Shown: piece after piece, positions 1-12,993 of the stretch | Position numbering within the stretch: position 1 is the stretch's first letter | How the letters are laid out: each line of letters opens with the position of its first letter | From: Armatimonadota bacterium | GTDB lineage: Bacteria; Sysuimicrobiota; Sysuimicrobiia; Sysuimicrobiales; Sysuimicrobiaceae | DNA: 64,000 bases | Direction of reading: 5' to 3' | Assembly (NCBI GenBank): GCA_031432545.1 | Contig: JAVKGX010000004.1 | Location: 62,001 to 126,000, forward strand | Program-made: the position numbers and the translations under genes | Notes under the pieces: generated by a model | Database searches by the model: none | What the model saw: only the letters and a program-made list of their open reading frames with translations | Told to the model about the DNA's origin: nothing

Positions 1-294
1 GACACCAACAACAACGGGCGGCGGGATCCCAGCGAGCCGGCGGTCGAGGGCGTCATCCTCGTCCTGTGGCCGGGCGAAGAGCGCAGGACCACCGACGAAC
101 GCGGGGCATTCGAGTTCTTCCCCCTACGCCCGGGAGACCACCGAGTGCGGCTGCTTGCGGACTCCCTTCCACCCCACCTGGCCGTCCCGGCGGATGGAGC
201 CGAGTTCACCGTCCGTGTGGCCCCCGGGCAGACCCTCGAGCTGGCGGTGCGGCTCATCCCGAGGACCAGGCCCGTCGTGCCGAGCTTCCCGTAA
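1..294 (+). CDS. C-terminal end of an SdrD-B/carboxypeptidase-regulatory-like surface protein (partial)
   Basis: Frame 1 is open from the window edge to a TAA at 292-294, giving 97 residues with no start, so the gene begins outside the window. The first residues read DTNNNGRRDPSEPAVEGV, the classic opening of an SdrD-B-like domain, in which a calcium-binding DxNxNG loop leads into a beta-sandwich. It continues with a strand pattern typical of this fold (TTDERGAFEFFPLRPGDHRV). Such domains are stalk modules of secreted or surface proteins. No anchor or sorting signal is visible at the C-terminus (ends VPSFP). It converges with the minus-strand secreted-protein gene 6 bases downstream. The domain call is fairly firm; the full protein is unknown. 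Confidence 0.75.
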   Translation, partial: DTNNNGRRDPSEPAVEGVILVLWPGEERRTTDERGAFEFFPLRPGDHRVRLLADSLPPHLAVPADGAEFTVRVAPGQTLELAVRLIPRTRPVVPSFP

Positions 295-300
295 GCCCCG

Positions 301-771
301 CTACATCACCAGGATCACCAGCAGCTGTCGGGCAGCTTCCGAGACGACGGCATCACCCCGTGCCACGTACTCCAGCTCCGCGGTCGTCTGCCGCAAGGCC
401 AGATCCGCGGCGATGCAGGCGCGGACGACCACGTCGTGCGTCCGACCCGTGGTCCTGCCCTGGCCGGAAGCCACCGTAACGAAGTTGCCGGCGAGGGGCG
501 ACCCCCCGACCTGCCAGGAGAGTCCCGGTCCGCCCGTCCGCAGCCGCACGGTCAGTTCGTAGGTCACGTTGCTCCTGACGTGCACGGTCGTCACCAGGGA
601 CCCGCACCGGCGGGCAGGGATGGACAGGTGCTGTGGCGCAGACAGCAGTGTGACCTGGATGCGGGGGAGTACGGTGATGCCTACGGTCTGCGTTCGCCCG
701 GCGCCAGAGACACCGGGTGCGGGGTAGAACAGCGCCACAACCACGACGATCCAGGCAGCGCCGTTTCGCAC
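301..771 (-). CDS. Small secreted protein of unknown function, behind a c-di-GMP riboswitch
   Basis: The 156-residue protein starts with GTG at 771, chosen because a strong GGAGGAG lies 8 bases upstream; a GTG 36 bases earlier (807) has no such site. Residues 1-25 form a signal peptide: a charged RN, a hydrophobic run (AWIVVVVALFY), then a small-residue cleavage region near VSGAG. The mature part is beta-rich with alternating hydrophobic positions and two cysteines about 70 residues apart, as in pilus-subunit or spore-coat-U-like sandwiches. I do not recognise a family with certainty. A cyclic-di-GMP class I aptamer sits about 90 bases upstream on the same strand, so expression is probably tied to c-di-GMP and hence to surface attachment or motility. 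Function is inferred from context only. Confidence 0.7.
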   Translation of the reverse strand: MRNGAAWIVVVVALFYPAPGVSGAGRTQTVGITVLPRIQVTLLSAPQHLSIPARRCGSLVTTVHVRSNVTYELTVRLRTGGPGLSWQVGGSPLAGNFVTVASGQGRTTGRTHDVVVRACIAADLALRQTTAELEYVARGDAVVSEAARQLLVILVM

Positions 772-859
772 GTCTTCCGCTCCTCCGCGCGAGCAGGCGC
801 CCAGCACAGCGGCCCTGCCTCACGACCGAGGAAGCAGGGCCACACATGGACCCTCGCTT

Positions 860-948
860 CGGCAGCCCGGCGACCGTGGCCCCGATGGGGCTGTAGGCCC
901 GTGGCTTTGCGTCCCCGGGTTTCCCTGGGTTTGCCCTTTCGGTCGAGC
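860..948 (-). promoter_or_regulatory. Cyclic-di-GMP class I (GEMM) riboswitch aptamer
   Basis: On the minus strand the sequence carries the hallmark GEMM-I blocks in order: AAAGGGCAAACC, a GAAA tetraloop hairpin closed by CCC/GGG pairs, GGGACGCAAAGCC, then GGGCCTACAGCC leading into a second GC-rich arm. These match the P2 stem with GNRA loop, the conserved GGACGCAAAGCC ligand pocket and the P3 arm of GEMM-I. Downstream, 812-818 pairs with 834-840 (GCCCTGC/GCAGGGC, with an inner CTC/GAG). This hairpin may be the expression platform. It precedes the secreted-protein gene starting at 771. Exact ends are approximate. Confidence 0.88.
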
Positions 949-1005
949 GCTATTCGGTTTTCACCCACTCTCTAATGCAAGAAGCGTGCCACGCCACAGA
1001 CACCT

Positions 1006-1566
1006 CTACCGGACGCGTTCCAGGTACTGACCCGTGCGGGTGTCCACGCGGATCTTCTCGCCCTGGCCCACGAACAGGGGAACATGGACCACCGCCCCGG
1101 TCTCCAGTTTTGCGGGCTTGCTGCCGCCCGACACCGTGTCGCCGCGCACGCCCGGAGAGGTCTCGACCACGGTGAGCTCGACGCTGTTGGGCAGCTCCAC
1201 TTCCAGTGGTCTGCCCTCGTGGAAGACCACCTCGACCGTCATCCCGTCCTTGAGGAAGCGCCTGCCGTCGCCGACGACCTCGGCGGGCAGCGTGATCTGC
1301 TCGTAGGTCTCGTTGTCCATGAAGTGGTAGGCCTCGCCGTCGTGGTATAGGTACTGCATCTCCTTCGTCTCGAGATAGGCGCGGGGCACGCGCTCACCGG
1401 CGTTGAACTTCCGCTCCACGATCGCACCCGTGCGCATGTTCCGGATCTTCGCCCGTACGTACGCCGACCCGCGGCCGATCTTGACGTGCTGCGATTCCAC
1501 GACGGTGTACAGCTCACCGTCCAGTTCGATGTGCACACCGGGCCGAAAGTCGTTGCTGGAGATCAT
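1006..1566 (-). CDS. efp: Translation elongation factor P
   Basis: EF-P binds ribosomes stalled at polyproline stretches and helps peptide-bond formation. The 186-residue length is typical. The ATG at 1566 was chosen over an upstream in-frame start because the KOW-like N-terminal domain begins there (ISSNDFRPGVHIELDGELY) and a GGGAGGA lies 9-10 bases upstream. Three beta-barrel domains follow, ending in the family-typical GEKIRVDTRTGQYLERV. The tip of the first domain reads KIGRGSAY, with Arg32 where E. coli and Bacillus carry a modified Lys. Arg at this site is known in the rhamnosylated (EarP) type and in unmodified forms. No modification enzyme is visible nearby. It is the last gene of the minus-strand run that includes the pilus genes, but it may have its own promoter. 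Confidence 0.97.
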   Translation of the reverse strand: MISSNDFRPGVHIELDGELYTVVESQHVKIGRGSAYVRAKIRNMRTGAIVERKFNAGERVPRAYLETKEMQYLYHDGEAYHFMDNETYEQITLPAEVVGDGRRFLKDGMTVEVVFHEGRPLEVELPNSVELTVVETSPGVRGDTVSGGSKPAKLETGAVVHVPLFVGQGEKIRVDTRTGQYLERVR

Positions 1567-1710: not shown

Positions 1711-2607
1711 CTAAGACGAGACGATGGCCACGTCGCCGCCCATCTGCTCGGCCAGTGCCAGCGCCTGCTCCGCCTTCTGCAGCAGGGGTCCCGGCTCGTC
1801 CGCGTGCTCGGGACAGGCCGCCACCCCCGCGCTGATCTGCGGCGCGAGCCCGCCCTGGTGCATTTCGGCGCGCGCCGCCAGGTCCTCGCGAAGGCGCTCG
1901 ACGACGAGCATCCCCGATGCGCCGTCCGTCTCCGGCAACAGCACCGCGATGCGATCCGCGGCCAGGCGGCACTTCGCGTCGACCGAGCGGGTGGACTCCT
2001 TGAGGACCTGCGCCACCTGCTCGACGGCGGCCTCCGCGCCCTGCGGGCCGTGCTGGGATGCCAGTTCCTCGTAGTTGTCTACCTTCAGCAGAGCCAGGCA
2101 CAGCGGACGGCCGTAGCGCACCGATCGCCGGACCTCGATGGGCAGGACGATCCGGAAGTACGACTCGTTGAACAGATCCGTTGCCCAGTCCTTGAGCGTG
2201 GTGTCGTCCGGAGCCCGTGCGGGCTCCGGCACCGTCCCCTCCCTCTCGGGGATCCGCCTCGCCGCGTCGTGCCACGACACGATGTCCATGGCCGCCCGGT
2301 CGAACTCCCCCGAAAGCGCCGCGGTCTCCTCCGCGGTCAGGTCCGACAGCACGCTCAGCACCGCACCGCGGAACGCCAGGAGGAGTTCGAGGCGGTCCGC
2401 GGCCGGCGCCCCCGACGTGGTGCGCTGCAGGTCCGACCTCACGAACGCGCGCACCGCATCCCGCTCCCCGCGCAGCGCCCGCTCGACGCCGTCGAGCAGC
2501 TCGCGACCCCACCTCTGCAGCGCCTGCGCCGACCGCGGCTTGGAGCCCCCGGTCTGGACAGCCTGCAACCAGGTCTCGAGGATCCGCTCCCGGTCGGTGT
2601 GCCTCAT
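1711..2607 (-). CDS. RsbRD-type N-terminal domain fused to a degenerate GGDEF domain
   Basis: The 298-residue protein starts with ATG at 2607 (RHTDRERILETW). Residues 1-130 are helical and resemble the RsbRD N-terminal sensory domain, which is often seen before GGDEF modules. Residues 150-298 follow the diguanylate cyclase fold (RYGRPLCLALLKVDNYEEL, then RLAADRIAVLLP, then ISAGVAACPEHAD). The signature GG(D/E)EF is replaced by AADRI, so both glycines and the catalytic Glu are gone, and c-di-GMP synthesis is unlikely. It may act as a binding or scaffold protein. It lies between pilD and efp, 19 bases downstream of pilD, hinting at pilus control. A c-di-GMP riboswitch is 800 bases away. The GGDEF relation is good; the N-terminal domain call is moderate. 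Confidence 0.75.
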   Translation of the reverse strand: MRHTDRERILETWLQAVQTGGSKPRSAQALQRWGRELLDGVERALRGERDAVRAFVRSDLQRTTSGAPAADRLELLLAFRGAVLSVLSDLTAEETAALSGEFDRAAMDIVSWHDAARRIPEREGTVPEPARAPDDTTLKDWATDLFNESYFRIVLPIEVRRSVRYGRPLCLALLKVDNYEELASQHGPQGAEAAVEQVAQVLKESTRSVDAKCRLAADRIAVLLPETDGASGMLVVERLREDLAARAEMHQGGLAPQISAGVAACPEHADEPGPLLQKAEQALALAEQMGGDVAIVSS

Positions 2608-2626
2608 GCGGCCTCCGCTGCGTCCC

Positions 2627-3376
2627 TCACAATCCGAAGGCGCCCAGATACCATCGGAGGAGTTGTCGTCCCCATTCCATCGCCACAAACCCCCCGACCG
2701 CAAGCGCCGGTCCGAAGGGGATGTGGTCCTTGCGCTTCTTGATGCCGGTGGCCAGCAGCACGAGCGCGACCAACCCACCGATCAGCACACCCGCGAACAG
2801 GCCCACCCCGATCAGCGGCCAGCCCAGGAACGTGCCCATCATCGCCGCGAGCTTGACGTCTCCCCCGCCCATGCCTCCGCGGCTTGCCATCGCGATCAGC
2901 AACAACACGCCACCGGCACCCAGGCCCGCCGCCGCACCGGCCGCCATCCCCCAGGGTCCGTCGCGCAACCCGGAGAGCACCAGGCCCAGCGCCATACCCG
3001 GCAGCGTGATGCGGTCCGGGATGATCTTGTGCTCGAGGTCGATGAAAAACACCGCGACCAGCAGCACCCCGAAGACCGCACACGCCGCCCCCTCCCAGGT
3101 CAGCGCATGCCGCCAGGCGCAGTAGGCGAACAACCCGGCGACGAGGATCTCGACTACCAGGTAGCGAGGCGAGATCCGCGCGTCGCACGTCCGGCACCGC
3201 CCGCGCAGGGCGAGGAAACTCAAGATCGGAACGTTCTCCCACCACTCCAGCCGGCGGCCGCACGACCGGCACCTCGATCCCGGCAGGATCACCGACTCCC
3301 CTCGGGGGAGGCGGTGGATCAGGACGTTTGTAAAGGAGCCGAAGATGGCGCCGAAGACGAATGCCAACCCGGTCAT
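2627..3376 (-). CDS. pilD: Type IV prepilin peptidase / N-methyltransferase
   Basis: This inner-membrane aspartic protease cuts prepilin leaders before the conserved hydrophobic helix and methylates the new N-terminus. The 249-residue protein begins with a hydrophobic helix (TGLAFVFGAIFGSFTNVLIH), followed by a cytoplasmic zinc loop with two CxxC pairs (CRSC and CRTC). The two catalytic aspartates are in the expected places: FIDLEHKIIPD and GGGDVKLAAMMG, the latter being the GxGD motif. Six to eight membrane segments are apparent. ATG 3376 matches the normal family N-terminus; upstream codons in frame are low-complexity and were rejected. It works on the minor pilins encoded at 9177-12857 in the same gene run. 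Confidence 0.96.
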   Translation of the reverse strand: MTGLAFVFGAIFGSFTNVLIHRLPRGESVILPGSRCRSCGRRLEWWENVPILSFLALRGRCRTCDARISPRYLVVEILVAGLFAYCAWRHALTWEGAACAVFGVLLVAVFFIDLEHKIIPDRITLPGMALGLVLSGLRDGPWGMAAGAAAGLGAGGVLLLIAMASRGGMGGGDVKLAAMMGTFLGWPLIGVGLFAGVLIGGLVALVLLATGIKKRKDHIPFGPALAVGGFVAMEWGRQLLRWYLGAFGL

Positions 3377-12857: not shown

Positions 12858-12993
12858 TTTCTGCGTCCGCGAAGCAGTTCCTGCGACCTCACGGCCAATT
12901 CAACCGCGACCCGACAGACATTTGCTGAGCAAGATCAGTGCCACCCGCTTATACGAGTCGGCTCGCCACCAGACCCGTCCGTTCCTGATCGGG

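Follow-up and report, generated by a model that had tools for sequence, protein, structure and literature searches.

What does a cyclic-di-GMP (c-di-GMP) riboswitch control when the gene behind it encodes a small secreted protein of no recognised family? The question arises at the left end of the window, by which we mean the whole 64,000-nucleotide stretch of an Armatimonadota contig (phylum Sysuimicrobiota, order Sysuimicrobiales) analysed here. A reading of the bare sequence had proposed a GEMM-I riboswitch on the minus strand, upstream of a gene for a 156-residue protein, here called P0001. Using cmscan, we found RF01051 (c-di-GMP-I, GEMM-I) at 858..945 (–), corresponding to the core P2/P3 domain of the aptamer, with a score of 75.8 bits and an E-value of 4.3e-13. 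The match covers the full model (positions 1-87) and lies far above the curated gathering score of 35 bits for this family, whose clan takes in RF03167. The blocks on which the proposal had rested, a GAAA tetraloop together with GGCAAACC and GGGACGCAAAGCC, were present as stated. At the level of family membership by sequence, the P0001 leader is a genuine c-di-GMP-I riboswitch and is expected to bind c-di-GMP. The genome (2.19 Mb) contains six such aptamers, and that of P0001, located 86 nt from its GTG codon, has the highest score.

The sequence-only reading had overlooked a second regulatory element. A -24/-12 promoter sequence for sigma-54 (RpoN), TGGCACG-CTTC-TTGC, is present at 977..991 (–) (TGGCACGCTTCTTGC), 31 nt ahead of the aptamer, and matches the pattern TGGCACN5TTGC exactly; the predicted transcription start of P0001 is at about 965. 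Exact boxes of this kind occur twice in the window against 0.04 expected (the second is at 12929-12943, –) and 20 times in the genome, which contains rpoN, compared to two occurrences of the reversed pattern. We then scored the 125 first-in-array aptamers of the order for a box that scored 9 or more out of 10 no further than 250 nt away. Boxes were present at 15 of the 30 aptamers from families f1 and f2, both of which have rpoN, and at 0/95 elsewhere, and the antisense, reversed and downstream controls gave 1, 0 and 1 hits out of 125. The rpoN gene (PF04552) is missing from families f5 and f7 (23/23 genomes) and present in most other families, so that the rpoN-less families provide a built-in control for the pairing of sigma-54 with the riboswitch: 15/37 aptamers outside these two families carried a box, compared to 0/88 within them (p 1e-9, an optimistic value, as p values here generally are, since related genomes are not independent). 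With an exact match, a genome that carries rpoN, and controls near zero, the element upstream of P0001 is, judged from sequence, a sigma-54 promoter.

The leader that follows consists of a short P1, a strong hairpin without a U run, and a free Shine-Dalgarno sequence. The possible closing helix P1, identified by eye, pairs CGCU (949-946) with AGCG (858-855) across 855..949 (–) and is weak and short in this copy. Over 133 aptamers of the order, cognate 5' and 3' flanks paired better than mismatched ones (-13.4 vs. -11.8 kcal/mol, p 3e-6), indicating that aptamers of the order generally have a closing P1 helix. The expression hairpin that had been suggested stands as a strong G+C-rich stem at about 809..845 (–; -29.4 kcal/mol), but its z score is only -1.85 against shuffled sequences and it has no U run. 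A search for an intrinsic terminator pattern at this hairpin found none, and a U-run terminator for P0001 is thereby ruled out. With such a hairpin, either translational control or an atypical terminator is possible. The Shine-Dalgarno sequence GGAGGA (781..786, –), 9 nt ahead of the GTG, lies in a region that is mostly unpaired in the predicted ensemble. Its exposure was identical when the leader was folded with and without the aptamer enforced, and therefore no ON or OFF direction can be read for P0001.

The P0001 gene occupies 301..771 (–), with its GTG at 771. As had been proposed, its product has a hydrophobic N-terminus and two cysteines (C56 and C119), and the conservation of both suggests a disulfide. 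An AlphaFold2 model built from ten sequences (pLDDT 73) is all-beta with nine strands and Ig-like, in agreement with the beta-rich mature part that had been anticipated. When we compared this model with the PDB using Foldseek, the pilins EcpA and FimA were among the best matches, with E-values down to 8e-5; TM scores were modest (0.3-0.58), and unrelated non-pilin beta-sandwiches scored equally. By sequence, P0001 matched nothing in the PDB but antibody heavy chains (E 0.015 or worse), which were set aside as generic Ig-fold noise. The view that P0001 belongs to no recognised family was borne out in part. Neither Pfam nor NCBIfam contained a match, and its relatives likewise lack a Pfam family at a meaningful score; the Spore coat protein U / Csu pilin family matched none of them. 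However, P0001 has a paralogue nearby, which belongs to an operon family found in eight genomes. This paralogue, 3.4-3.9 kb away and just beyond the window, was detected by BLASTP at E 2e-9 with both cysteines aligned and an identity of about 27-31%. A profile of seven operon subunits matched P0001 over 120 columns (hhalign 94.9%, E 4.5e-8), and a joint profile found it at E 8e-40, a value that is not independent because P0001 is itself in the profile. Used as a query against 60 relatives, P0001 yielded three partial matches near threshold, and the paralogue proved the better probe. The same riboswitch-gene pair was not found in relatives, P0001 itself being present in the source genome only.

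The paralogue is the first gene of a plus-strand operon that lies left of the window and converges on P0001. By its open reading frames, the operon encodes the 168-aa secreted paralogue (L007 3424-3930, +), a 281-aa secreted protein that is a chaperone candidate (L007 3982-4827, +), and an 821-aa usher-like barrel protein (L007 4829-7294, +), the 3' end of whose gene is in the window at 1..294 (+). Profile searches divided the 821-aa protein into Cu_amine_oxidN1, a central region, and two SdrD_B-like domains. Its AlphaFold2 model (five sequences, mean pLDDT 73, first 190 residues poor) shows 26 consecutive strands between residues 205 and 616 and then two beta domains. In a Foldseek search of the PDB, places 1-11 were all FimD or PapC ushers, with a best E-value of 1.5e-19. 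Global TM scores were low (0.25-0.3), which may reflect the flexible multi-domain model. The model thus has the parts of an usher, a large barrel with N- and C-terminal domains, of which the N-terminal one was predicted with low confidence.

The gene order and Ig-fold subunits of this operon are those of archaic and alternative chaperone-usher pili (Csu, ECP/EcpA), whose ushers likewise have, besides the barrel, one N-terminal domain and two beta domains at the C-terminus. The operon subunits end directly after their last core strand, an abrupt end also seen in pilins that require a donor strand. The operon nevertheless differs from Csu and ECP. The Pfam Usher family (PF00577) had no match in the 43 Sysuimicrobiales genomes, while an E. 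coli control was positive; no plug domain is inserted between the barrel strands of the model; and the N- and C-terminal domains match Cu_amine_oxidN1 and SdrD_B. The chaperone candidate had no Pfam or PapD family match and showed only weak Ig-like and WxLIP similarity. Since the Usher family is absent, the chaperone similarity weak, and the TM scores low, we call the operon chaperone-usher-like rather than chaperone-usher.

The WxLIP similarity raises the question of whether the operon could instead serve WxL-type surface anchoring, with the 281-aa protein as a WxL-interacting anchor and the barrel as an unrelated export or anchor protein. The first Ig-like domain of the 281-aa protein is weakly similar to WxLIP in profile, the protein weakly matches EfmWxLIP1 in the PDB (E 0.08), and a distant relative matches Pfam WxLIP_PGBD at E 0.0038. 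However, the best WxLIP score of that relative, 17.7 bits, is below the cut-off of 27.3, we noticed no WxL motif among the subunits, and the 281-aa protein has no apparent C-terminal membrane helix that would anchor it and is encoded alongside an outer-membrane barrel whose eleven top structural matches are all FimD/PapC ushers. We consider WxL-type anchoring improbable.

The chaperone candidate is present in exactly 8 of the 43 Sysuimicrobiales genomes, the same eight that carry the operon subunit, and the order subunit-chaperone-usher is conserved in all of them. In the seven other carriers, a sigma-54 box lies 64-106 nt upstream of the subunit gene (7/7); the operon in the source genome has no recognisable box. 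Divergent versions occur outside the order, where a more distant chaperone candidate was found in 30 of 343 genomes. An usher-like gene follows it in five of eight inspected loci, with a small gene between the two in one of these, and at some loci a small secreted protein precedes the chaperone candidate. Relatives of both the subunit and the chaperone candidate are encoded at L091 2892-8704 in a Bacteroidota MAG (Persicitalea). In family f2 (L054, L057, L061, L062), the cluster that holds the usher-like operon also contains rpoN, a roadblock-like gene and an alternative sigma factor.

In the source genome, the operon and P0001 together are located between efp and nusB. The efp gene (elongation factor P; 1006..1566, –), identified through homologues in 11 relatives, flanks the system without being part of it, and relatives with a readable junction have nusB directly after efp with no P0001-type insert. 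Because efp and nusB lie side by side in several relatives (L081, L082, L083), the operon and P0001 look like an insertion, as judged by gene order; G+C content does not differ. On the other side of efp is a GGDEF gene (1711..2724, –), a conserved efp neighbour. Its product matches Pfam GGDEF at E 7.7e-21, and the description of the protein as degenerate is apt, as AADRI stands at the signature position. Type IV pilus genes begin at about 2.6 kb, within the 3 kb that had been indicated.

Since these genes lie 1-3 kb away, it had been suggested that P0001 and its riboswitch are functionally tied to the type IV pilus operon and to the degenerate GGDEF gene. Apart from physical closeness, this idea draws on the occurrence of c-di-GMP-I riboswitches ahead of type IV pilin-like genes in two family members (G004, G005). 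Against it, relatives have efp and the gene preceding it without P0001 or the riboswitch (in L074 and L076-L078, the gene ahead of efp is similar in size), and the relatives of P0001 track the usher-like operon, as does the riboswitch-led secreted protein described below, which does not go with efp or type IV pilus genes. The suggested tie is thus not upheld, and we regard it as very unlikely.

Although P0001 itself was confined to one genome, a recurring riboswitch-led secreted protein was found in relatives. These proteins, which we term type B, have 125-142 aa, share the motif V(K/R)SN..(W/Y).L, and are encoded downstream of c-di-GMP-I riboswitches in six genomes, all of which carry the operon, compared to 0/35 operon-negative genomes (Fisher p 5e-6; within family f2, p 0.03). 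In all six copies, the gene starts about 12-17 nt past an aptamer (in G007, the aptamer nearest the gene was identified by eye), and three of the six genes are preceded by serial arrays of two or three aptamers. In G007, three aptamers are found by the type-B gene (L070 2944-3083, 4541-4687 and about 4805, +), and some 60 nt of repeat, GTTGAAGGT ... ACCTTCAAC, are inserted in each of their P3 stems. The match between the type-B and operon-subunit profiles is remote (E 2.6e-5), and P0001 showed no significant similarity to the type-B profile. From sequence and gene context, P0001 is the source genome's type-B counterpart by position and a member of the operon-subunit family by sequence. A type-B-like match in the source genome at C2:66132 (E 2e-4) was rejected; the aligned part, in a 435-aa frame, is limited to query residues 5-50 and probably reflects signal-peptide similarity.

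The P0001 leader is built unlike the type-B leaders. In four of these (G031, G037, G025, G034), the 3' strand of P1, as seen by eye, is GAGGAC and includes the Shine-Dalgarno sequence; in G031, G025 and G034, an upstream GAUGAGG could pair with the same CCUCAUC arm. Predicted Shine-Dalgarno exposure in type-B leaders was mixed (0.01-0.61). Their sequences suggest an OFF switch, in which a ligand-stabilised P1 would mask the start site.

These results lend good support to the claim that a secreted surface component is under c-di-GMP control. The reading we favour, which we hold to be somewhat better than an even bet, is that P0001, transcribed with sigma-54 and gated by c-di-GMP, is a subunit or cap in a fibre of a divergent chaperone-usher-like kind, its function as a subunit being deduced. 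RNA polymerase with sigma-54 would initiate near the predicted start at 965, and a c-di-GMP-I aptamer would fold in the nascent leader and take up its ligand. The ligand state would then set expression through the segment between the aptamer and the start codon. Following export by Sec, the Ig fold of P0001 would form with its disulfide, and the Ig-like chaperone candidate and usher-like barrel would bring the protein to the surface. Several points count against this reading: the exact riboswitch-P0001 pair is a single case, the recurring riboswitch-led protein being remote in sequence; P0001 is convergent with the operon, not within it; and the missing sigma-54 box at the operon of the source genome, the modest TM scores of P0001, the barrel model without a plug and with a low-confidence N-terminal domain, and the weak sequence hints for the chaperone candidate weigh in the same direction.

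The C-terminus of P0001 bears on its place in such a fibre. Members of the operon family stop about five to eight residues after the conserved YTI..EY strand; P0001 runs about 20 residues further, and its AlphaFold2 model has an extra C-terminal strand at 144-155 that is absent from other family members. In usher pili, subunits polymerise because they lack their last strand (PMC4654587). Since P0001 alone has a strand beyond the core, the model and this analogy suggest that it may complete its own fold and serve as a cap or tip, not as part of the shaft. The same strand could, alternatively, remove the need for donor-strand assembly altogether. P0001 would then be a free-standing c-di-GMP-controlled Ig-like matrix or adhesion protein, whose likeness to the operon stems from duplication and joint acquisition, which its convergent orientation, own promoter, and identity of merely about 27-31% to the operon paralogue would fit. 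However, only operon-positive genomes have small secreted Ig-like proteins led by riboswitches, and sigma-54 boxes mark both these proteins and the operon, and we therefore think a free-standing role rather unlikely. Returning to the fibre subunit or cap, a broader version can be put forward tentatively, though we hold it to be somewhat less likely than not: the operon would represent a widespread, unnamed branch of chaperone-usher-type assembly beyond the recognised families, in which Sysuimicrobiota set the composition of the fibre, not the machinery, by c-di-GMP. The sigma-54 promoter and riboswitch would gate a special Ig-like subunit or cap, and the general subunit, chaperone and barrel would be made separately.

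Were the favoured reading correct, an mRNA switch would place a chaperone-usher-like surface fibre under the direct control of c-di-GMP. Sigma-54 and the riboswitch together make a two-input design, with activator-dependent transcription and a ligand-dependent readout. The locus as a whole suggests that in an uncultured soil and hot-spring phylum, attachment to surfaces is coupled to a widely used "settle down" signal. Archaic chaperone-usher systems have been reported from Proteobacteria, Cyanobacteria and Deinococcus-Thermus (PMC4654587); usher-type assembly would extend to a deep uncultured phylum and to the further lineages that carry the chaperone candidate, and usher-type proteins would include ones unnamed in current family libraries. 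The text of the Sysuimicrobiota description contains no mention of pili, c-di-GMP or riboswitches (PMC11604079), and, judged from titles and abstracts, no paper on c-di-GMP riboswitches with chaperone-usher systems or RpoN in the open-access collection searched describes such an arrangement. The P0001 aptamer itself looks ordinary; its target system and its pairing with sigma-54 look to be undescribed. In Bacillus thuringiensis, the Bc2 c-di-GMP riboswitch controls a collagen adhesion protein (PMC4933901), and is likewise located in the leader of a surface protein. From known c-di-GMP-I riboswitches, that of P0001 differs in its upstream sigma-54 promoter, a pairing that recurs in relatives, and in its unnamed target family.

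P0001 has a single aptamer, and the same genome also contains a tandem array of three at C4:148056-148568 (+; L008 5057-5569), comparable to the triple-tandem riboswitch Bc3-5 of B. thuringiensis (PMC4759541). A perfect sigma-54 box lies upstream of this array and, by eye, a U-run terminator behind its first copy; the last copy precedes a GHL10/PgaB-like glycoside hydrolase gene, with a GT2 glycosyltransferase nearby. Of two further single aptamers, one (L009 6920-6995, +) is followed by a U-run terminator and then a lipoprotein-like 302-aa protein, and the other (L010 8853-8933, –) by no clear gene. Across Sysuimicrobiales, c-di-GMP-I riboswitches were repeatedly observed upstream of WhiG/FliA-type-like sigma factor genes (L066 6534, L069 6412, L173, L204 and many f5 and f7 loci), and c-di-GMP may control a sigma factor cascade in this order. 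In family f2, the riboswitches ahead of these genes also carry sigma-54 boxes.
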